Source of the DNA: Nitzschia sp. DOCU1
Lineage: Eukaryota > Bacillariophyta > Bacillariophyceae > Bacillariales > Bacillariaceae
Length of the DNA stretch: 64,000 nt
NCBI GenBank assembly: GCA_951394045.1
Contig: OX595993.1
Location: forward strand, 372,001 to 436,000
Direction: 5' to 3'
Program-made: the position numbers and the translations under genes
Part shown: in pieces, positions 27,799 to 45,526 of the stretch
Numbering within the stretch: the first letter of the stretch is position 1
How the letters are laid out: every line of letters starts with the position of its first letter
Notes under the pieces: model-generated
What the model was told of the DNA's origin: nothing
What the model saw: only the letters and a program-made list of their open reading frames with translations
Databases searched by the model: none

Positions 27799-32878
<5,080 letters not shown>

Positions 32879-32903
32879 CCTTCAAACGGGAGTTTTAAAA
32901 CTG

Positions 32904-33844
<941 letters not shown>

Positions 33845-33862
33845 TGGTATCCCGGGACCTGG
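33845..33862 (+). other. Primer-binding site of Gypsy-B
   Basis: TGGTATCCCGGGACCTGG begins right after the LTR end. The TGG complements the CCA tail of a tRNA. The first seven bases are those of initiator-Met-type sites (TGGTATC), but the rest differs, so the primer tRNA is not identified. Confidence 0.75.
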
Positions 33863-36743
33863 CGAATCGGATTCCGCGACACCCCCAAAGCGCTCCAGGA
33901 ACGGAGACGTTGCGTATGCATCGGGACAACAGGACATGTCATTCGGATTTCATTCCCCGGGCTTTGATGGTTTCCAATCGGAATTCGCCATTCATCCATT
34001 CGGGACCGAGGGTAACGGAGGTGGTCTCATGCGAGCAGCCGGTGGCCTGACCGGTAACGGCAATAACGCATTTACTATGGCCTACGCCAGACCCAGCCGC
34101 CCCATGCATGGCAAGCCGGACGGAAACTCGCGTCCCCAGTACTACAAAGACGGGATGCCGGTTATCCAGGAATTGAAATGGGGAAAATTACAGGCCAACG
34201 TACCAGTCATTGCACCCTACACCGAACGACCCGCTATCAAGAACCAAATCTTGGAAAAAGCGGTCGCAGCCATCGAACGAGCCCACGCGTCGTGGCACGA
34301 CAAAGTCGACGCCCTCCTGTCTTTGTTTGAAGCCACCTGCCCAGGCGCCCGCACTGTGGCAGCATTGGCCATCCTCGACTTGAACCGCTACAACAGCCCA
34401 GCATTCCGTTTCCACCGTTTGGAGGCACGGGCCCAAGATGGAACTGCACTTGACACCGTCAACGCAGTAGACCCCGACGACTTCCCCGGCGGATTTCGAA
34501 CCAACGTACAGTGGTTCCAAATCCAGCTGATTGTCCAACCCCGCAACATTCAAGCCCACGCTGATCTCGGCATCGACCCCTCGTCATTTCCCATCGAAGA
34601 GACGGCCACAGTTTTCGTTGGAGCCCCAAAAATCAACGGAGAGCTACCCGAGTTTTTCACGCCGGCCATGTTGAACAACCAAGCCGAGCATCGCAATTTA
34701 GTCGCCGCATACGCATTGGCCAACCACCCATTCACCTTGGCCAACAAGATGCAAGGAAATTCCGCCAACGGTATTCCAGAGGCCCGCGTCTTCGAAACTT
34801 GGATTAGCGACATCAAGGCCCGCACCATGTATCAAGCTGTGGCTCAAGCTATCAAGTCGCAATACGTAGGCAAATTGGAGGGACTCCTCTCTGTGGCAAT
34901 GCGTCTACAACAAATTCGCCCCACCGTTTTCAACCCGGACACGCGCATGATGGAATACCAACGGGTGAATGATATTTACAAACGCTACCAACAGATCCTT
35001 CAGGAAATTGATCCGGCCAACCCAGGCCCTGACATTCCAGACTTAGCGAACCAGTTTTTCCACTCACTGAGTGGCGATCTTCAGAAGCGAGTGTATGATG
35101 CCGTCCCCCAGGGAGCACCGATGGGCTTGGCCGACAACATCCAACGCCTCCACGTCTTCAAATTGGCCTGCGAAAAAGAAGAGGGGAATTTGGCACAAAT
35201 CGTCAAGCTGGTAAAAGGCGTCTCGCCCGGACGGCGCACGACTACACCAGTTGCAAGCCACAATGACCCCAACAACACTACCCCAGGCAGGACGTTCGCA
35301 ACAATGCGGCAACCCGAATTCGGATACAGCCCCTCGACTGACATGCAGGCGTTGAAGCTCACTCCTGCCCCGTTCACAGGGTACAGCAACAACCAAAAGA
35401 CGCATAGTGGACTGACCGCGGCCTATTGCTTGGACATCGGCAATGAGGCTATGACACTAACCCTCCCAGCAGATCTGGCTAGAGACGCCGAACAGGGAAC
35501 GAATAAATGGGCGAGCCACACAGTCCTGTTGATGGCCACCATGAGCGCCGCGGAACAGGCATTGGCCGACGCCAGCGGGACCAGGTTCCCGAGAACGTGT
35601 TGGGGATGTGACGCCCCCGGCCACACTTTTCGTGATTGCCCACACAAGTCCAACAAAGATGTCGCAAACAATTTCTTCAAGAAAATCCGGGAGATGAAAC
35701 AGGCAAGACAGGAGAGAGACAGCCAGTGGCGTTCCGGCAATGGTGCCAAACAACAAGGATATATGACCACGCAGATTTACGATTTCGTTCAAAAGATCGC
35801 AGACCCCGACACCACACCGGCAGACCGCACGCGATATTTACAGAATCTAGCAAGCAAGGTCGACTACGAGAGCCCCAAACTCACGCGCAACAAACAAAGT
35901 GGAAACAAGGGACCCATGCAGTTCACATACTTCCTACGCCAGGAAGACAGTGACACGACAACTCTCACCAGCCTGCCACGCAAGACAAAGGGAGTTTCAT
36001 TCGCAATGGTGACCCAACAGACCCCCGAATTACAGTTCTCGGTAAACGCCACATTGGCATTTATCTCCATTCCCATCGGGACAAGCCTAATGTCAGGAAC
36101 AGAGTTGAAAGGCCTCTATGACACCGGAGGATGCTGTACGATGGGCTGGTATGCCTATCATTGGGGAATCTCGCAACGACACCCCGAAATTGTCAAGGCA
36201 TTCCACGAACTGGAAAAATACCGCTACGAGCCCATCGCAATTGGAGGAATTGATGGACATGTCAAGATCACACACCTCATCGAATATTATCTTCCATACG
36301 ACGACGGAAACGGCAACTTCCACACGTTACTAGTGGGACTGGTAGACCAATTGCCACTGAACACAATTTACGGTCTACCGCTAATCATAAAGGCAAACAT
36401 GAAGGCGGATTTTACCGAGATGTTGGTGCACTCCAACGTTTTGGACGACGAATTCAAACTCACCATGGAGCGTCCGACACTGATACCCATAGAAGAACTG
36501 GATCACAAAGGCCACCTCAAGCACAAGACCTACGCCAACATCAAGGCGGACTACTCGTCATCCAGAGACATTCAGGACTACGAGATCATTGGTGATATCG
36601 AAGGTAGCGACCCACAGCACATAGGCAGCCTGGCCGCCTGAAAGCCACGGGGGACAGACCTGATACCTCAATCAACTTTTAAAATAAAACATTTTGAGAG
36701 TTTTGAGCGAATAGGATTGGCCCCCCGAATCAGGAAATTAATC

Positions 36744-39700
36744 ATGTCCACAGAACATGCGAGAGTCTTTGCTGCATCATCCGCAACGGTCGAAGAGGAA
36801 CGCAGGGCAAAACTGGGAATCATGGAAGACGGCACCAAATCAGTCCACGTGCCCAAACGCGTTTGGCGGCCCCAAGTAAAAAATACATACGAAGAACCGG
36901 AATTCCAAGACCTAGCTGAAACAATGGATTGGCTGTTCGAAGACAGCGGAAAAGTGGCAGCAAAACACAAGGCAGGCCCGGAACCAAGGAATGACATCAT
37001 CGTTTTTGACCCGATCCGACATCAACAACGACTGGACGAAAACATGCAGTGGCGGAACTGCCCGGAAGGTATGAAAGGCCCTATTGAAGCAATTGTGAAG
37101 GAATTTTGGGATGTGTTCGACGCAACAGGCATGAAACGACATATACTGGGCTACGAATTCAACATAGACACGGCGACGGTCCAACCCATATGTTGCAAAC
37201 AACCGAGATACGGCCCACACGAAACGAGAGTCATCACACAATTGGCAAATGCCCTCGAGGCGAAAGGCCTGATCGAAGACGACGAAGGACCATGGGGAGC
37301 AATGGTTGTCCTGGCAGCGAAACCAAATCAAGGCCACGTACATTGGTCCGAGTACATATTCCGACTCTGTGTTTCCTATCGCAACCTCAACGCCATCACC
37401 AGGCCATTTAATTGTTTCATCATGCGATGTGACGATGCAGTAGAGGGCATCGGAGACTCGAATTGTTTCCTGACTCTCGACTTGGATGCAGGATACTGGC
37501 AGGTAAAGATGCACGAAGCAGCCAAAGAAAAAACGGCATTTTTCACACCGGAAGGGAAGAAACATTGGAAGGTGATGCCGATGGGAATCCTAAATGCGCA
37601 CGCTTTTTTTGTCGCCATGTCCACGGATTTCAAGCGCGAATGGAACCAGCGATTCAGCGAGAACCCCACGGAGGCAATCAAGACACTGCTGCGCGTTATG
37701 GAAAAACACAAGTCGTTAATCACAGCACAAGGCATGGAATCAAAAATTGAGGAATTCACAATGTCCACGGCGTCAGCAGCAACACAAGGCAACCCAGGCA
37801 GCAAAGTCATCGTGGACGACGTGATGGTACATGACAACAACCCCATCACATTGTTAGCATACTTCGTGGGAATGCTAGAAGTATACAAACGATATCGCAT
37901 CACGGTCAACCTTCGCAAGACACGATTCTTCCCATCCCGAGCAGAATTCGTCGGGATCGACGTGCTGCCCGGCGGCAATTCCCCTGCCAAATCAAAATAC
38001 GAGACCATTCAGAAGATGCCCATCCCAAAGAGTTTCTCGGACATCAGGATGATCATCGGATGCATTGGGTTTTATTCCAGTTGGATCCCGCACTATGAAG
38101 TCGAGGTCGCACCGTTCAGGGACCTACTCAAACAAGAGCCCAACGCAGGAACCGACCCCGAACAAGCCGAAACAAAACTGAGGGAATTGTGGACGGAGGA
38201 CCACACCGCGAAATTCGACCAGCTTAAACAGGCCATCATCAAGGGGCCAGTACTTCAAAGAGCAGACTCGAACAGAAGGTTCCTAATCAAGACAGACTGG
38301 TCCAAGCTTGCATTCGGTGCCGTGCTCTGCCAAGCCGACACCAGTTCAGAAGCAGAAACGGCCCTACTCAAAGAAATCGAAGGCGACAAATGCGAGTTCG
38401 ACAAGACGCTCTCTGGACTCCGGCTCAGGCCAGTAGATTTTGCATCAAGAACGTGCAAAGGCCCAGAATGCAATTACCACTCATATGTGGGAGAAGCAGC
38501 GTGTGGCCGATGGGCATTCCAGAAATTTCGCAAGTGGCTTGTCGGCCGAGAATTCACATGGATCACCGACTGCAGCGGGTTGACAAGATTCTTCGAAGGG
38601 GAAGCCAACATAACCCACACGACGCAACGATGGAGGCTCGAGCTCCTCGCTTACAATTTCACCATCGTGCATCGCCCAGCCCGCATGTTGGTAGAGTGTG
38701 ATCTACTATCACGATACGAGTCCGTAGTAGCCAATTGGAGAGAAACGGAGACAGCACAACAAACCACGGACCACGTAACGGCGGCTTATTGGAAAGCGAC
38801 CAAGGAACCCACGCCGCTACCTTTCGTACATCACAACCCTACAGTGATAGGACCTAACACAAGCGCAAGAACGACATTGGCGGCGACGTGCGACAAGGCT
38901 AGAGCGACATGGATTATAGGAGCAGGATTGGAAACGGCAACGAAGGCGATGGCGAGGTTAGGCCACGAGGCAATGATAACTTTGAAGACAGACGAAACGG
39001 AGTATTGGCAGGAAAAGACGGATTGCACCAACTTAGGGAAGACATTACAGCGCATCGAAGCGAGCAACAAACCTCCGCCCCCAGTGGAATGGATCGTCGT
39101 TCCAGGAGCTGACGAGCTCAAGTCCAACGAACAACACCAATCACTAGAACAATTGATCGACAAAGCAACCCGAATTGGTTTGAAATCAGTCCTCATGATG
39201 TGGACCAAGTCAAAGACCAACGAAGGGAACAAGGAACGGTGGGCGAAGACTTTGGCAGCAAAGGACATGGTGGTCAGCACACTTATACTCAATGGAGACA
39301 CATGCGGAGCCCCGATGGCATCCACGCATATAGGGATTATAGCAACGACGGAGGAAACATCGATGCACTTACCGAAACATATCAACGCCTGCATTGCCGA
39401 AGAAAATCGACGACTGGAAGACGTGCTGGATCTACCCAACGCAAGCTACAGCGATTATGTCAACGTAGCACCCAAGCAAGGAGCGGACACAAGCCGAACA
39501 GTCAATGTGTCATATGACAACACTCCCACATCAAGGACACTCTTTACGCAAGAAGACAAGGCACCTAATTTAGCGAACGTGGAGGAAATAATCGGTAGAG
39601 GGGAATTCTTGGTGCAAACCCAGGATGCATGGGTTCCATCTCAAGTACGGGCAATGCGACCGTGGGAAACGCTACAACTACTCGGTATGGACAGAGATGA

Positions 39701-42173
39701 AGCACGGGCACATCTGCAGCAACAAGGCACGAAATGGAACAACGAACGAGCCCGAGTTCGCACAGTGGCCCCGATGGAAGTATGGGCAACAGCAGTGGCA
39801 TACCTCGTCGAAGCAGAGAGCCAAGCAAGAAATACTACGGAGGAAGAACAGGAGTCACTGCAGCAATACATGTCGCCGGAATTACGGGCATTCGCGTTCG
39901 GTAGAATCAACAGGCACACCACGTGGCCGTTGCCAACCAGGGAATTATGGATCAAAGAGCTCGACACGGATGCCGACACCTCGATGTTGATGGAGGCCAT
40001 CAAGAAAGGCGAACGACTGGCGAGAGCCCGACTACAAGACAAAGCTTATTGGCCAGCCTATGAACGAGGCAGACTAACAGTGGAAGACGAGGTCCTGTAC
40101 GAATACGAGGAACCCAAGGCCATGCACATCAGGCAATTACGACGAGCGGTGGTGCCAAGGAGACTACGAGACGTCATCATCGCCGCATATCATGCCACAC
40201 CAATCGCAGGACACATGTCAAGCCTCAAGACAACGTACCGGATAGCGACGCGATATTGGTGGCCCAAAATGACGACGGAAATTGATAAAGCAGTCACAGG
40301 GTGCGGCCACTGCAAAGCAGCAAATGCCACAAGTCATAAGGATCAGAAAATCCTACAAGCACTAGAAATGGACGAGCCCTTTGATGTTTGCGGTATGGAT
40401 GTATGGGTGCCAGGAACAACCAAGCCCACGGACACCCACTCAACAAAAGCAAAACGATTGAAAGTCGAACAACGGGCCGTCCTAACGTACATGTGTGTCA
40501 CAACTGGCTTCGTCACGACAGCATTCATGAGCAATATCGATTCGGACACATCGGCAAGGCTAGCATTCGGACAATTCTTTGTACCCCGAGGCATGCCAAA
40601 GCTATTACTTTTGGACGAAGGAAGCGAATTCAAGAGCGTATTGATTACCATGTGCGACAGACTAGGTATCAATCACTACGTGGTCAGCCCCGAAAATCAC
40701 GACGGGATTATCAACGAGAGGTTCCACAGGTACCTCAACAAGGTACAGAAGATACAGGCGGTGGACATGTCATCACACCAGGAATGGGCCATGAACACGC
40801 TCTTCGCCACGTACGCGTGGAACGCATCGCCGATAGCAGGAACGGACATCCAACGAGCATTTGTTGCAGTCGGACGACATTTCAATTTCCCACTAGACGA
40901 GGCGCCGGAAGAACTAGCAATACCACGCATACACACAGAAGGAATGACCGCAGTGCAAAGAATCGAAGCAATGTTCCCATTGTGGTGGAGGCAAAAAGAG
41001 TTGATAAAAATATTGAACGAGAACAGGCGAAAATATCATCGGGATTTGAAGAACGGCACAAAGAAAAAGAGGATCTTCGAAATAGGAGACATTGTCGCAG
41101 TCAGGAAGCAAATAAAGTCAAAGGCGTCAGAAGGAGCACCGGCCAAACTCACCCTACGATCAAAGGGGCCATACCGCGTCATTGCGAAAGAATCAGACGA
41201 ATCCTACAAACTGCAGAAAATCCCAGCTACAAGTAGGCTCGCGAGAGCAACAGGGAGAACGATAAAGGAGTCATCTTTCCGAATGGAGAAGCTCCCGTCA
41301 CATCTGGTGGTACATCGGAGGGTGGACACGCCCGACACAAGATTAGCAAAAATGAGACAAACATTAGCGCACAACCCTTTGGAGGACAGCTTAGGCATAC
41401 CAGACTTCGGGAAGTACGCGAAAGCCCAACCGGACAAAGCGTACGCATTTGAAAAATTGGAGGATTTATGGCCGGAAGTGGAAGCTCACGACCAAGAAGA
41501 TTCATCGGACGAAGAGGCCGACGAAGCACAAATCAACCAAGCAGAAGAAATTATCGAAGAACAACAACGAGCTGAAGAACAACAAACCCAACAACAACCG
41601 AACAGGAGGAGACGAATCCAGGTACAAGAACAACTCACCCCCAAGATAGCGTTGGCGCTACTCAAGCGGAAAATCGAAAACTCCAAGGACAAGCTTTTTC
41701 TCATCGCCTACAAGGAAGAAGGCGACCCGAGAGGACAATGGTATTTAGTACAAGTGGATGAAGAAGCGACGAGCAATAATTTGGCAAAGAGGAAAGGTCA
41801 ATACCACTGCAGGTGGTACTTCACGCACCCGGGGGATGCCAAAACCAAATGGGTACGAGACTGCAGATTTTGGCCACTGATAAAAGAGTTGAACGAGGAC
41901 GAAGTGATGGGCATGACCGTGCCAACGAGACCAAGCAAAGTCGATAAACTGCTGGCAACAAAAGGCTACAGATACGCATGGTACCAAAAGGAAGTGAACC
42001 TGGCCGAAGACGGAATGGTGGGACCATTCAACTTTGGACCCAGAAACACAATCCCAGTCGATGCATGGCCCAAATTGGAAGCAGCAGCACGAGAAATGGC
42101 GGCAAAAGACATCGATGTCTCCACAATAAACAAGATCATCCCACACAGAGAAGGAAAAAGAAAAAGAGGATAA
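36744..42173 (+). CDS. Gypsy-B pol: RT, RNase H, methyltransferase-like segment, integrase
   Basis: Numbered from ATG 36744 (1809 residues); the frame is open upstream to the gag TGA. Reverse transcriptase spans about 130-440: LTLDLDAGYWQVKM (243-256), VMPMGILNAHAFF, and IVDDVM (356-361), where Ile replaces the usual aromatic of YxDD. About 60 extra residues (295-353) lie before this motif. RNase H has KTDWSKLAFGAVL (516) and ITDCSGLTRFF (607). Residues 715-1025 are a C5-methyltransferase-like segment without catalytic residues, described separately. Integrase has H1150/H1157 with CGHC (1187-1190), then GMDVW (D1219), LLDEGSEF (D1291) and NERFHRYLN (E1325), and a GPY motif (RSKGPYRVI, 1473). 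After an acidic Gln-rich linker, residues 1655-1715 form an aromatic-rich module (WYLVQVD, CRWYFTHPG) of unknown role. Confidence 0.9.
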   Translation: MSTEHARVFAASSATVEEERRAKLGIMEDGTKSVHVPKRVWRPQVKNTYEEPEFQDLAETMDWLFEDSGKVAAKHKAGPEPRNDIIVFDPIRHQQRLDENMQWRNCPEGMKGPIEAIVKEFWDVFDATGMKRHILGYEFNIDTATVQPICCKQPRYGPHETRVITQLANALEAKGLIEDDEGPWGAMVVLAAKPNQGHVHWSEYIFRLCVSYRNLNAITRPFNCFIMRCDDAVEGIGDSNCFLTLDLDAGYWQVKMHEAAKEKTAFFTPEGKKHWKVMPMGILNAHAFFVAMSTDFKREWNQRFSENPTEAIKTLLRVMEKHKSLITAQGMESKIEEFTMSTASAATQGNPGSKVIVDDVMVHDNNPITLLAYFVGMLEVYKRYRITVNLRKTRFFPSRAEFVGIDVLPGGNSPAKSKYETIQKMPIPKSFSDIRMIIGCIGFYSSWIPHYEVEVAPFRDLLKQEPNAGTDPEQAETKLRELWTEDHTAKFDQLKQAIIKGPVLQRADSNRRFLIKTDWSKLAFGAVLCQADTSSEAETALLKEIEGDKCEFDKTLSGLRLRPVDFASRTCKGPECNYHSYVGEAACGRWAFQKFRKWLVGREFTWITDCSGLTRFFEGEANITHTTQRWRLELLAYNFTIVHRPARMLVECDLLSRYESVVANWRETETAQQTTDHVTAAYWKATKEPTPLPFVHHNPTVIGPNTSARTTLAATCDKARATWIIGAGLETATKAMARLGHEAMITLKTDETEYWQEKTDCTNLGKTLQRIEASNKPPPPVEWIVVPGADELKSNEQHQSLEQLIDKATRIGLKSVLMMWTKSKTNEGNKERWAKTLAAKDMVVSTLILNGDTCGAPMASTHIGIIATTEETSMHLPKHINACIAEENRRLEDVLDLPNASYSDYVNVAPKQGADTSRTVNVSYDNTPTSRTLFTQEDKAPNLANVEEIIGRGEFLVQTQDAWVPSQVRAMRPWETLQLLGMDRDEARAHLQQQGTKWNNERARVRTVAPMEVWATAVAYLVEAESQARNTTEEEQESLQQYMSPELRAFAFGRINRHTTWPLPTRELWIKELDTDADTSMLMEAIKKGERLARARLQDKAYWPAYERGRLTVEDEVLYEYEEPKAMHIRQLRRAVVPRRLRDVIIAAYHATPIAGHMSSLKTTYRIATRYWWPKMTTEIDKAVTGCGHCKAANATSHKDQKILQALEMDEPFDVCGMDVWVPGTTKPTDTHSTKAKRLKVEQRAVLTYMCVTTGFVTTAFMSNIDSDTSARLAFGQFFVPRGMPKLLLLDEGSEFKSVLITMCDRLGINHYVVSPENHDGIINERFHRYLNKVQKIQAVDMSSHQEWAMNTLFATYAWNASPIAGTDIQRAFVAVGRHFNFPLDEAPEELAIPRIHTEGMTAVQRIEAMFPLWWRQKELIKILNENRRKYHRDLKNGTKKKRIFEIGDIVAVRKQIKSKASEGAPAKLTLRSKGPYRVIAKESDESYKLQKIPATSRLARATGRTIKESSFRMEKLPSHLVVHRRVDTPDTRLAKMRQTLAHNPLEDSLGIPDFGKYAKAQPDKAYAFEKLEDLWPEVEAHDQEDSSDEEADEAQINQAEEIIEEQQRAEEQQTQQQPNRRRRIQVQEQLTPKIALALLKRKIENSKDKLFLIAYKEEGDPRGQWYLVQVDEEATSNNLAKRKGQYHCRWYFTHPGDAKTKWVRDCRFWPLIKELNEDEVMGMTVPTRPSKVDKLLATKGYRYAWYQKEVNLAEDGMVGPFNFGPRNTIPVDAWPKLEAAAREMAAKDIDVSTINKIIPHREGKRKRG
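38886..39818 (+). other. Degenerate C5 cytosine DNA methyltransferase-like domain inside Gypsy-B pol
   Basis: Residues 715-1025 of pol follow the motif order of Dcm/Dnmt-type enzymes. WIIGAGLETATKAMARLGHE (723-742) matches the SAM-binding motif I FxGxG with its following helix. VEWIVVPGADELKS (781-794) matches motif IV, where PCQ is expected; Ala789 stands in the place of the catalytic Cys. LKSVLMMWTK (813-822) occupies motif VI, without Glu-Asn-Val. ILNGDTCGAPMASTHIGIIA (848-867) matches the motif VIII strand 'LNAxDYGVPQxRxRxFIV', with QxRxR lost. RAMRPWETLQLLGM (969-982) resembles motif IX (RxLTxRExARLQGF). RTVAPMEVWATAVAYLV (1006-1022) resembles motif X (GNAVPPxVAxAI). The homology is my motif reading, not a search result. 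If right, the domain cannot methylate but could bind SAM or DNA. Confidence 0.62.
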
Positions 42174-42768
42174 TTAGGGGACAAGAAGCAACAAAACGGG
42201 TACAATGCAACAGTCCACGGACTCTAAAATAGCCACACACAACGACATACAACATCCAATGGGTACGAACAGAACAAAACAAAATGGGTACGAAGACGCA
42301 ATGGAAAAATAGGGTACAACAGCAACAAGGTAGCTACAAAACAAGAGCAAACAAGAGAAGCACACAATAAAGGTCGGCGATCTCGATACACTAAGAGTCG
42401 GACTGATCATCCGGAATCCTGAAGTGTCGAGGGTTGATAACTACTGGCCGACGGCCGAGCTCGGAAACGATGGCGAGGCGGAGACAATAAGACGGGAAAC
42501 GAGTCAGAACCAAGGCGACGTTCTCAGGAGTGTAGAACGAGTGAGATCGAGGTACCTGCTTTCGATCTGCGTTCCAGAGAGCCGAGCCAAAGTTGAGACA
42601 AGCAGACCGCAGTCTAAGAGGTCAAACCAAAATTGAAGAGTAGTCTCCATCATTGGAGACCCGCTGGAGGGTACCAAAACGTCTTGAGCCAAGGCTCGAA
42701 CCTACCCTTGGAGGTCCAAGAAGTAGCACTCTTCTTCACGGGTACGAAGCTATAAGAAGAAGAGGGGA
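42174..42768 (+). other. Gypsy-B 3' non-coding region and polypurine tract
   Basis: 595 bp between the pol stop and the right LTR without a coding frame. It holds at least five scattered copies of GGGTAC(A/G)A (for example near 42198, 42260, 42287, 42312, 42741). It ends in the polypurine tract AAGAAGAAGAGGGGA (42754-42768), which primes plus-strand synthesis. Confidence 0.75.
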
Positions 42769-43077
42769 CGTAATGGGTGGCCGGAGACGTTAGCCGAGTC
42801 GGAGCAGTCAACTAGGGCAGCACCCAACGGAGTGACACGTCATGCGTTCGGAGGATCGGCAGCAGCAGCCGATCCCCAGAACGAGTGGCTAGAAGCTCTT
42901 GAAAGGAATACAGCACCCGAGCAATCTACTCAGTTATCAACCAACAGTTGCCTCGATAGCCCTAACGAGTCTAAGGACAAGTACGAACAAGTTAACATAA
43001 GCCATGAAGTTCCACGCTAGTGACTACTTTGCCAGCTTGGACCGTGATGAAGAAGATGTGGAAGGAAGCACTTTACG
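42769..43077 (+). repeat. Gypsy-B right LTR
   Basis: 309 bp, same as 33536-33844. Its internal ATG at 43004 opens a frame that runs out of the LTR into the copia pol remnant. TGCT (43078-43081) follows. Confidence 0.92.
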
Positions 43078-45526
43078 TGCTGGGATACTTAAGGATGACC
43101 CGATTCGGATCGGCACATGGACTGAATGTGCCAATTATCACCAGGATACCGAGAACATCCTTGTATCGGAAAACAAGCCAGTCTCATCGCATCGGCAGCT
43201 ATACGAAAAAGACCCTATTTACGCCCGCCACTTAAGAACATTTGGAGAGATGGCGGTCGTTTCATACTACCACGATAAGAAAATGCGTAGTAAAATGGAT
43301 AAGCGGGGTCGAACAGCTATGTTTGTGGGATACACGAAAAACCACGCCGACGATGTCTATCGACTTGTCGACTTGGAAACTAATGGACTGCTGCAGTCCA
43401 GAGATATCCTATGGCTGAACAAGACGTATGGGGAATACAAAGGTACGAATCCGAGACCAAAAGTTGTGGTTATCGATGACGACGATGAGGAAGTTGTTCC
43501 TCTCGCCGAGGAAACGAGAATTACAAATGAACTTATCAGGTCAGCAGAACCTGAGGAGCCGGAAGGGAATGGAGATACGGACGCATCGCAACCCCCAGAC
43601 TCCGAAGCCGGAAGGGAGGAGCCCGACCAAGCTACTCAACAGGAACGGCCCGCCCGAATGACACGCCAGGAGCGCGAGTTGCGACGCCTCCAAACTTTCT
43701 TCAACCCCAATCCAGGCGCCGGTGAATCCGAAGAGTCGAAAGCAGCTGATCGATTAGGAAGGGAAAATGATGCGACGGACTTTCAAAACGCACAAGTGTC
43801 GTCTAAAAATGAAAGTGCGAATGAAGAAGAAAAAGAGACGACTGAAAACGAAGCAGCAGCGACAGAGATGGATGCCGCGCATCTATTAATCGACCACTGC
43901 TTTGCGCAAGAAGAAGTAGAGTACGATGAACCTACGAAATTTAAAGATGCTTGGGACCATGAGGACCCGAAGCAGAGAAAGAAATGGAGAGATGCTATCA
44001 ACAAGGAATTAAATGATATGGAAAATCGAAATGTGTGGACTTTGATCCCGCGTACGCAAATTCCGCGAGATCGGCGTTGCGTTAAATCGAAATGGGTATT
44101 TAAGGTCAAACGAAATGGCGTGTTTCGCGCCAGATTGGTAGCTTGCGGATACAGCCAAATCCCAGGAGTCGATTTTACCGAGAGCTATGCTCCAGTAGTA
44201 AACGACATCACATTCCGAATCATGATCCTGTTGTCGATGATCTACAAACTGAACAACGTGATCATCGATGTCGAGACGGCATTTCTACATGGCGATTTAG
44301 CCGAAGACATATACATGGACGCGCCCGAAGGATTGATGAACAATGGCGCCCATGTGAGAGACGAAAACGCTTTGTGCTGTAAGCTGAATCAGACTATTTA
44401 TGGACTCATTCAATCTGCGAGAGAGTTCTTTAAAAAGCTAAGTGCGAAGCTGAAAGCAATTGGATTTAAACAAGGATACGCAGATCCTTGCCTACTGACG
44501 AGAAACGACGACGATGGCATGATATTCATCGCGCTTTATGTGGATGACTGCTATTGTTGCGGAACGAAGAAAGCGATTGACAGTACGATCGCAGGATTGA
44601 AAAAACAAGGCTTTACGCTAAAGATCGAGAACGATATGACGGACTACTTGAGTTGCAACATTGTCTTCAATGAAGACAAAACGAAAGCGACGTTGCGTCA
44701 ACCTCATTTAATCAAATCAATGAAGGCTAAGTTTGGAGAACTCGTCAGGACGATGACACACTACAAGACACCGGGAACTCCAGGACAAGGGATAGTGAGA
44801 CCAGACGATAAGATGCCAAACGTTACTCCAGAAGAACACAGAGTATATCGAAGTGGAGTTGGCACGTTGCTGTATCTTGTGAAACATTCGAGACCAGACA
44901 TCGCAAATGTGGTGCGAGAGCTTTCAAAAGTTCTGGATTGCCCGACGCACGCTGCATTTAAGGAAATGAAGAGGGCAATAAAGTTTGTATTGGATACAGA
45001 AGACTATGGACTGAGAATTGAACCGAAATTCAGCGGGACAAATCAGGAATGGGACATCGTTGCATTCTCTGATAGTGATTGGGCCGGAGACAAAGAAACG
45101 CGAATCAGTGTGTCGGGATTCGTGATATTCTTATTGGGCGTGCCAATCAGTTGGAAATCCAAGGCACAAAGAAGCGTCGCTTTAAGTAGCAGCGAAGCCG
45201 AAATCGTTGCACTATCCGAAGCGGCAAAGGAAATCAAGTTCATCGTGCAACTACTGATAACGATGGGAATAAAGGTCAAATTGCCCATCATATGCCGCGT
45301 TGACAATATCGGAGCGATATTTATGGCGGAGAATGTGACAACGACGTCACGAGCGAAGCATCTAGACCTGCGAACCAGATACGTAACGGAATTCATTGAA
45401 GATGGATTTATCAAGATAATCTTCGTGAAGACTGCGGAGAATCTAAGTGATTGGTTCACGAAGAACGTAAGTTCGCAAATCTACGATGATCACAAAGAGA
45501 AATACATCAGGCGAGTTGAGTCATAA
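43004..45526 (+). CDS. Copia reverse transcriptase-RNase H (3' half), fused to an LTR-derived start
   Basis: 840 codons. The first 24 codons come from the Gypsy-B LTR and read directly into copia sequence (from about 43078). The integrase tail contains IGTWTECANYHQDTENIL and a 'YTKNHADDVYRLVD' region, followed by an acidic linker. Reverse transcriptase has KAKWVFKVKR-like SKWVFKVKRNGVFRARLV, DVETAFLHGDLAEDIYMD, and the active site LYVDDCYCCG. RNase H shows AFSDSDWAGDKETRISVSG and SSSEAEIVALSEAAKE, as in all Ty1/copia elements. All motifs look functional. It is both the second half of the split copia gag-pol and a new chimeric frame that could be expressed from the Gypsy-B LTR promoter. Confidence 0.9.
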   Translation: MKFHASDYFASLDRDEEDVEGSTLRAGILKDDPIRIGTWTECANYHQDTENILVSENKPVSSHRQLYEKDPIYARHLRTFGEMAVVSYYHDKKMRSKMDKRGRTAMFVGYTKNHADDVYRLVDLETNGLLQSRDILWLNKTYGEYKGTNPRPKVVVIDDDDEEVVPLAEETRITNELIRSAEPEEPEGNGDTDASQPPDSEAGREEPDQATQQERPARMTRQERELRRLQTFFNPNPGAGESEESKAADRLGRENDATDFQNAQVSSKNESANEEEKETTENEAAATEMDAAHLLIDHCFAQEEVEYDEPTKFKDAWDHEDPKQRKKWRDAINKELNDMENRNVWTLIPRTQIPRDRRCVKSKWVFKVKRNGVFRARLVACGYSQIPGVDFTESYAPVVNDITFRIMILLSMIYKLNNVIIDVETAFLHGDLAEDIYMDAPEGLMNNGAHVRDENALCCKLNQTIYGLIQSAREFFKKLSAKLKAIGFKQGYADPCLLTRNDDDGMIFIALYVDDCYCCGTKKAIDSTIAGLKKQGFTLKIENDMTDYLSCNIVFNEDKTKATLRQPHLIKSMKAKFGELVRTMTHYKTPGTPGQGIVRPDDKMPNVTPEEHRVYRSGVGTLLYLVKHSRPDIANVVRELSKVLDCPTHAAFKEMKRAIKFVLDTEDYGLRIEPKFSGTNQEWDIVAFSDSDWAGDKETRISVSGFVIFLLGVPISWKSKAQRSVALSSSEAEIVALSEAAKEIKFIVQLLITMGIKVKLPIICRVDNIGAIFMAENVTTTSRAKHLDLRTRYVTEFIEDGFIKIIFVKTAENLSDWFTKNVSSQIYDDHKEKYIRRVES

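Follow-up and report, generated by a model that had tools for sequence, protein, structure and literature searches.

A catalytically dead C5-cytosine methyltransferase fold in the pol protein of a diatom-associated clade of Ty3/gypsy retrotransposons

The pol protein of a Ty3/gypsy retrotransposon of the diatom Nitzschia sp. DOCU1 carries, between RNase H and integrase, a domain with the predicted fold of a C5-cytosine methyltransferase (C5-MTase) and without its catalytic residues. The element lies in a stretch of 64,000 nucleotides (contig OX595993.1, positions 372,001 to 436,000; C9:372001-436000 in our numbering of the source genome, a 52-Mb assembly of 63 contigs), hereafter called the window, and the domain occupies 38895..39836 on the plus strand (model residues 26-339, placed by profile alignment and predicted structure). 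Such a domain had been proposed from the letters of the sequence (the original prediction), and this core claim has come through both a structural comparison and an estimate of selection. At roughly even odds (a probability of about 0.5), we regard it as a pseudo-C5-methyltransferase: an old captured full MTase fold that has lost its catalytic residues, is kept by selection and serves as a structural or protein-interface module.

The domain fills an unusually long linker. In the pol open reading frame (ORF) of the window, which is 1843 aa long (P0001; 36642..42173, plus strand), 475 aa separate the end of RNase H (residue 690) from the start of the integrase H2C2 zinc-binding domain (residue 1165). 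Among 140 pol proteins in which both landmarks occur in order, this spacing is 44-193 aa in 44 and more than 300 aa in 96, a number that counts the element of the window twice (P0001 and P0003) and includes P0043 and P0044, whose long linkers the domain model does not recognise. The extra segment is therefore real, and its size, roughly 300-400 aa, is slightly under the 450 residues or so originally estimated; the residues 715-1025 assigned to it at that time are residues 749-1059 of the ORF, as the earlier numbering starts at the Met at ORF residue 35. An assembly artefact was rejected on account of six loci in the genome and of relatives from metagenomes and a transcript set; one domain-bearing relative, P0006, is a complete ORF in the 'mmetsp' transcript set.

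Evidence for the fold comes from structure and from profiles. A model built from a 26-row alignment (a 6-row alignment had given a predicted local distance difference test score, pLDDT, of 39.3) has a Rossmann-type core followed, in order, by the target-recognition and motif IX/X regions, and C5-MTase-family proteins make up all 50 listed matches in each of two structure comparisons. M.HhaI and M.MpeI are the top-ranked folds among the matches listed, and Dnmt2 and DNMT1 trail them by no more than about 2 Z units. DNMT3B was matched at E 7.7e-7 in the other comparison, and the 50 matches listed in the Z-ranked one hold no Dnmt3 row, which is no proof of absence. In a viral library the first match is annotated as a DNA polymerase, and most of the named rows below it are cytosine methyltransferases. 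When the domain profile was aligned with an MTase profile by hhalign, the score was 54.0. All controls fell below this: 60 block shuffles reached 30.7 and 60 column shuffles 15.0 at most, a single reversed profile scored 11.1, and four other pol modules gave no more than 19.6, so that the resemblance is above chance. Searches with one sequence or the 6-row alignment found nothing usable in Pfam, NCBIfam, PHROGs or PDB: the one Pfam match, in one of six rows, is unrelated (E 0.23), as is the best PHROGs match (E 0.086), and PF00145 is absent from the precomputed Pfam lists of the relatives (46 rows; 120 of 121 rows). As for ancestry, a phage MTase scores best among 17 single sequences, at an identity too low for a tree.

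Profile alignment places the C5-MTase motifs along the domain, all on the plus strand. The motif I region (WIIGAGLETATKAM) lies at 38910..38951, and the codon of Ala823, opposite the catalytic Cys of motif IV, at 39108..39110. ENV is replaced in the motif VI region (39180..39212), QxRxR in the motif VIII region (39291..39347) and the Asn in the motif X region (39747..39806); motif IX (VRAMRPWETLQLLGM, 39645..39689) is conserved, with its Arg, Glu and Gly all kept. The original prediction had already named these losses, reading the substituted Cys of PCQ as Ala789, which is Ala823 of the ORF.

Relatives tell the same story. A whole-pol protein search yielded what we call clade A, and a search with P0025 yielded clade B, while the domain region alone retrieved only the same element; P0003, being that element, was dropped, and clade A was compiled without P0025. 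Cyclotella and Skeletonema appear in the names of some clade-B relatives, which together with eighteen silicon-transporter matches points to a diatom. No relative was confirmed when P0002 was scanned against viral and genome contigs, an approach that picks up close relatives only. In clade A (n=24), the position of the catalytic Cys is occupied by Ala in 10, Met in 5, Thr in 2, His in 2 and five single others, and never by Cys. The following Gln is kept in 8/24, and P0007, P0008, P0010 and P0012 read P-R-A-Q-D/E-F/Y, which is like PCQ-x-F with the Cys swapped. QxRxR has lost its Gln and second Arg throughout (0/24 each) and its first Arg in all but two; the motif X Asn remains in 1/24, the GG of motif I in none, and the motif II acid and ENV are lost in most. 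Motif IX persists (Arg 23/24, Glu 21/24, Gly 24/24). The catalytic residues are also mostly lost in clade B (n=71), where Ser stands at the Cys position in 36. An active MTase was rejected as a candidate, as catalytic Cys, ENV, QxRxR and motif X Asn are not kept. Degeneracy, which had been described for one element, is thus the state of every compared clade member within a larger diatom-associated gypsy lineage.

This lineage was delimited with a tree of 146 pols based on reverse transcriptase and RNase H. All 88 long-linker members fall on one side of a single split (local support 1.0), together with none of 46 controls; the 88 are long-linker pols, not 88 individually confirmed domains, the controls include P0043 and P0044, and 12 of the 146 sequences have no linker length, seven of them on the domain side. 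Profile-profile comparison links clade A to clade B (E 2.3e-13) and clade B to MTases (E 6.2e-6). The one-sided split fits one capture before clades A and B parted, so that a single capture by the ancestor of a diatom-associated Ty3/gypsy clade is supported by these sequences. As both clades are dead, the alignments suggest that catalysis was lost early, with parallel loss as the alternative.

One of the two pols without a domain match deserves separate mention. P0044, a gypsy pol of 3012 aa with a PHD finger, lies outside the domain clade in the tree. By eye, its residues ~1793-1982, again between RNase H and integrase, resemble a Dnmt3-like C5-MTase that keeps the Cys (ECQ) and ENT; the profile score of this stretch is weak (12.2 bits), Pfam gives no match, and no MTase is found among the best 60 of 301 PDB matches. 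The slot between RNase H and integrase may have been used repeatedly for MTase captures.

The domain is under purifying selection. In two recent pairs of copies from the same genome, its ratio of nonsynonymous to synonymous substitution rates (dN/dS) is 0.173 (341 codons), 0.191 (158 codons) and 0.22 (182 codons), far below the value near 1 by which the original prediction could have failed. The corresponding values for reverse transcriptase/RNase H are 0.046-0.079. Integrase and pol C-terminus in the L016/L017 pair (0.57; saturated) are unusable because the frame of L017 changes there. The window copy and C14 are near-identical, with too few differences for dN/dS, and comparison of the window copy with L016 or L018 meets saturation, or near-saturation, at synonymous sites. 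All six copies in the genome that have full reverse transcriptase/RNase H also have the domain, a seventh reverse transcriptase match being a fragment of 134 residues.

The net charge of the domain is negative in 23/24 sequences of clade A (median -11) and 57/71 of clade B (median -4), as compared with 3/16 real MTases (median +1.5; p 6e-7 and 4e-4, the sequences compared being related). These 16 MTases comprise 11 of 12 phage loci (L032 was dropped, another gene being annotated inside it) plus five from the host, of which one is partial; the viral L021 was unused. An acidic domain makes DNA binding less likely, which weakens one of the functions first suggested. Another, binding of S-adenosylmethionine (SAM), is unlikely in clade A because the GG of motif I is lost in 24/24 and most sequences lack the acid of motif II and the Asn of motif X.

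An outline of the proposed history and function is as follows: an ancestor of the diatom-associated clade would have captured a full MTase fold long ago; the captured fold would then have lost its catalytic residues while selection continued to keep it. Instead of methylating, the domain would fold into a module that immediately precedes integrase on its N-terminal side and presents a protein-protein surface. A surface of this kind is the most likely function because the domain must fold, need not catalyse and lacks the neutral-to-basic character of DNA MTases. Since it directly precedes integrase, the putative partner would be the reverse transcriptase-integrase complex itself or a host protein meeting that complex. 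In the former case it would resemble the connection domain of retroviruses, an RNase H that has lost its activity and been put to structural use.

Several observations weigh against this proposal. With a profile of the 16 real MTases, the segment of the window is hit at E 0.16 only and the top-scoring genuine members of the clade at E 0.0016, and the clade-A profile finds just three of 17 single MTases at E <1e-3. Thirteen clade-B long-linker pols are not matched individually by the domain model, itself containing P0025, so that the homology of clade B rests on the profile-profile comparison. Whether relatives retain PCQ or ENV, a check proposed at the outset, has a mixed answer: the Cys is missing throughout clade A (0/24), one member of which, P0018, has 'EN' at motif VI (1/24), and in clade B a Cys stands at the aligned catalytic position in 8/71. 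Clade B also retains the motif I Gly in 68/71 and the motif II Asp in 57/71, and cofactor binding may survive there. One copy in the genome, C2, has a stop and a break within the domain. The database pols were selected as open frames and their openness is therefore weak evidence, for which reason the lack of short-linker clade members weighs more. The overall charge is silent on a local basic patch. Finally, identity across clade A is 16-24% in the domain, depending on the part, as against 49-59% in the reverse transcriptase, RNase H and integrase modules; together with low dN/dS this points to a fold retained while its sequence drifts, and it is compatible, too, with an arms race against a host protein.

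An alternative with a host protein at its centre is that the domain antagonises or tethers the silencing machinery in the manner of DNMT3L or DRM3, binding a host MTase or silent chromatin and thereby blunting silencing or guiding integration. This is possible, though we hold it rather unlikely. The domain has the shape of a C5-MTase and adjoins integrase, its rapid sequence evolution fits conflict, the host carries C5-MTase genes of its own (PF00145 is matched seven times, at about six places), and catalytically mutated MTase paralogues work in known silencing pathways (DNMT3L; DRM3, PMC2965745). On the other side, its acidity disfavours direct binding to DNA or nucleosomes, and the low dN/dS of the recent pairs gives no sign of positive selection when the domain is taken as a whole. 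A broader form of the idea is a doubtful possibility: in a large and ancient lineage of diatom Ty3/gypsy elements, a characteristic pseudo-methyltransferase would have replaced chemistry with recognition, would read or block the host DNA-methylation machinery and would thereby link integrase to the epigenome. As to the host matches themselves (L008-L014), none is a copy of this element, and L014 lies within an 885-aa open frame.

That the domain is a mere passenger, the remains of a methyltransferase that was useful in the past and now decays without a role, seems improbable. Its catalytic residues are gone, its identity is low, and its dN/dS exceeds that of reverse transcriptase/RNase H in the same pairs by a factor of about two to four; that ratio is still far below 1, the domain is present in every full copy in the genome, and a short linker occurs in 0/88 tree members, though domain-less pols would fit the length limits of the search. 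It is about as improbable that the domain would still be an enzyme or a cofactor sensor, binding SAM or methylating via other residues, as the complete fold and the residues kept in clade B might suggest, given that the catalytic Cys and motif I GG are missing from 24/24 sequences of clade A, most or all of which also lack the acid of motif II, ENV, QxRxR and the Asn of motif X. A chance resemblance of an unrelated alpha/beta linker domain, to which the fruitless searches of Pfam, NCBIfam, PHROGs and PDB and the E of 0.16 would lend themselves, was considered and rejected as next to negligible. The reading of a retained, non-catalytic structural or interface module is therefore the one we prefer.

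The element that carries the domain is a recently inserted Ty3/gypsy retrotransposon. Its two long terminal repeats (LTRs; 33536..33844 and 42769..43077, plus strand) have the same sequence over 309 nt (CGTAA...TTACG, 0 mismatches) and are flanked by a TGCT target-site duplication (33532..33535, abutting the 5' LTR, and 43078-43081, directly past the 3' LTR); the identical LTRs and the open pol frame had been noticed earlier. A putative primer-binding site, TGGTATCCCGGGACC, starting with TGG (33845..33859), and a polypurine tract (42754..42768) were found by eye on the plus strand. The plus-strand pol modules follow the Ty3/gypsy order: reverse transcriptase (residues 180-460, 37179..38021; Pfam RVT_1 at 244-440, E 1.2e-13, limits by clade alignment), RNase H (residues 541-690, 38262..38711; Pfam and clade alignment), the H2C2 domain of integrase (40134..40337; Pfam) and the integrase core (40344..40841), the last assigned by clade alignment only, as Pfam rve is unlisted for this pol. 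The final ~420 residues of pol, downstream of the integrase core (40902-42170), include stretches conserved clade-wide (e.g. DKLF, VQVD and WP in the majority line) and have weak Pfam matches (SH3_Tf2-1, E 0.0089, residues 1482-1525; Integrase_p58_C, E 0.4).

Upstream of pol lies a gag-protease frame (33771..36641, plus strand) with a low-scoring zinc knuckle (E 0.35) and a DTG motif seen by eye. Its first in-frame ATG (33771) falls within the 5' LTR, so that the frame passes through the primer-binding site. It ends with an in-frame TGA (36639-36641), as gag does in 6/6 copies of the genome. Five nucleotides downstream is ACGGGGGAC, and ~70 nt farther is CCCCCC, which is invariant in the five copies compared and able to pair with it. 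The TGA and the putative stem (36639-36727) look like a stop-readthrough device for Gag-Pol; the core pairs of the stem are invariant, and a two-sided change in one of 11 predicted pairs gives slight covariation support. Two neighbours may be added. An open frame starting in the 3' LTR (43001-45526) continues into part of a Ty1/copia pol (RVT_2, E 3.3e-38), so that the element seems to lie inside or next to a copia element; and a second gypsy pol on the minus strand (28415-32881) has a short RNase H-H2C2 spacing, ~120 aa, with an rve match slightly under the cut-off.

Methyltransferases in retrotransposons have precedents. The active ones named in the original prediction, from dinoflagellates and charophytes, are real: the parts of De Mendoza et al. 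(2018; PMC5890265) bearing on them describe DNA methyltransferases (DNMTs) in LINE (long interspersed nuclear element) and DIRS elements of Symbiodinium and in a gypsy Pol of Klebsormidium, note that the key residues are conserved, demonstrate de novo CG methylation and propose that such retrotransposons methylate their own DNA. A 2023 survey of diatom DNMTs (PMC9998398) cites that work, and in the text available from it no such element is named and the word 'gypsy' is absent. At the level of titles and abstracts, most subscription papers being outside reach, no account turned up of gypsy elements, from diatoms or elsewhere, that carry a dead methyltransferase. If the recognition or blocking reading is true, this would be the first case known to us in mobile DNA of a regulatory pseudo-DNMT shared by a whole clade. 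Here is a retrotransposon lineage whose captured MTase fold lost its chemistry and yet persists, and what use a retrotransposon makes of a DNMT fold beyond methylation becomes a question testable with purified protein.

Compared with known systems, the domain shares 12% identity with M.HhaI, whose catalytic Cys, ENV and QxRxR it does not keep. DNMT3L and DRM3 (the latter in PMC2965745) are likewise inactive C5-MTase relatives kept by genomes, but they are host genes working with active MTases, whereas the partner of the diatom domain is a putative one. GyDi1 and GyDi2 of Thalassiosira pseudonana are also diatom Ty3/gypsy elements; they have the typical order of protease, reverse transcriptase, RNase H and integrase in PMC2806351 (2009), the main text of which does not contain the word methyltransferase. 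Diatom gypsy elements reported with ordinary domain order may conceal a domain missed by sequence models. SymbioDIRS-Dnmt3 and SymbioLINE-Dnmt of Symbiodinium are C5-MTases carried by retrotransposons, but of the DIRS and LINE types, in another host lineage and, in the relevant parts of PMC5890265, with key residues conserved. The closest likeness is KnitGypsy-Dnmt3 of Klebsormidium nitens, which, according to the same parts of that paper, has a C5-MTase in a Ty3/gypsy Pol frame under purifying selection (Ka/Ks < 0.2, as compared with 0.17-0.22 here). It is of the Dnmt3 type and has the conserved key residues described for the published retrotransposon DNMTs; in the diatom domain, which has many relatives and M.HhaI and M.MpeI as its top folds, these residues have been lost.
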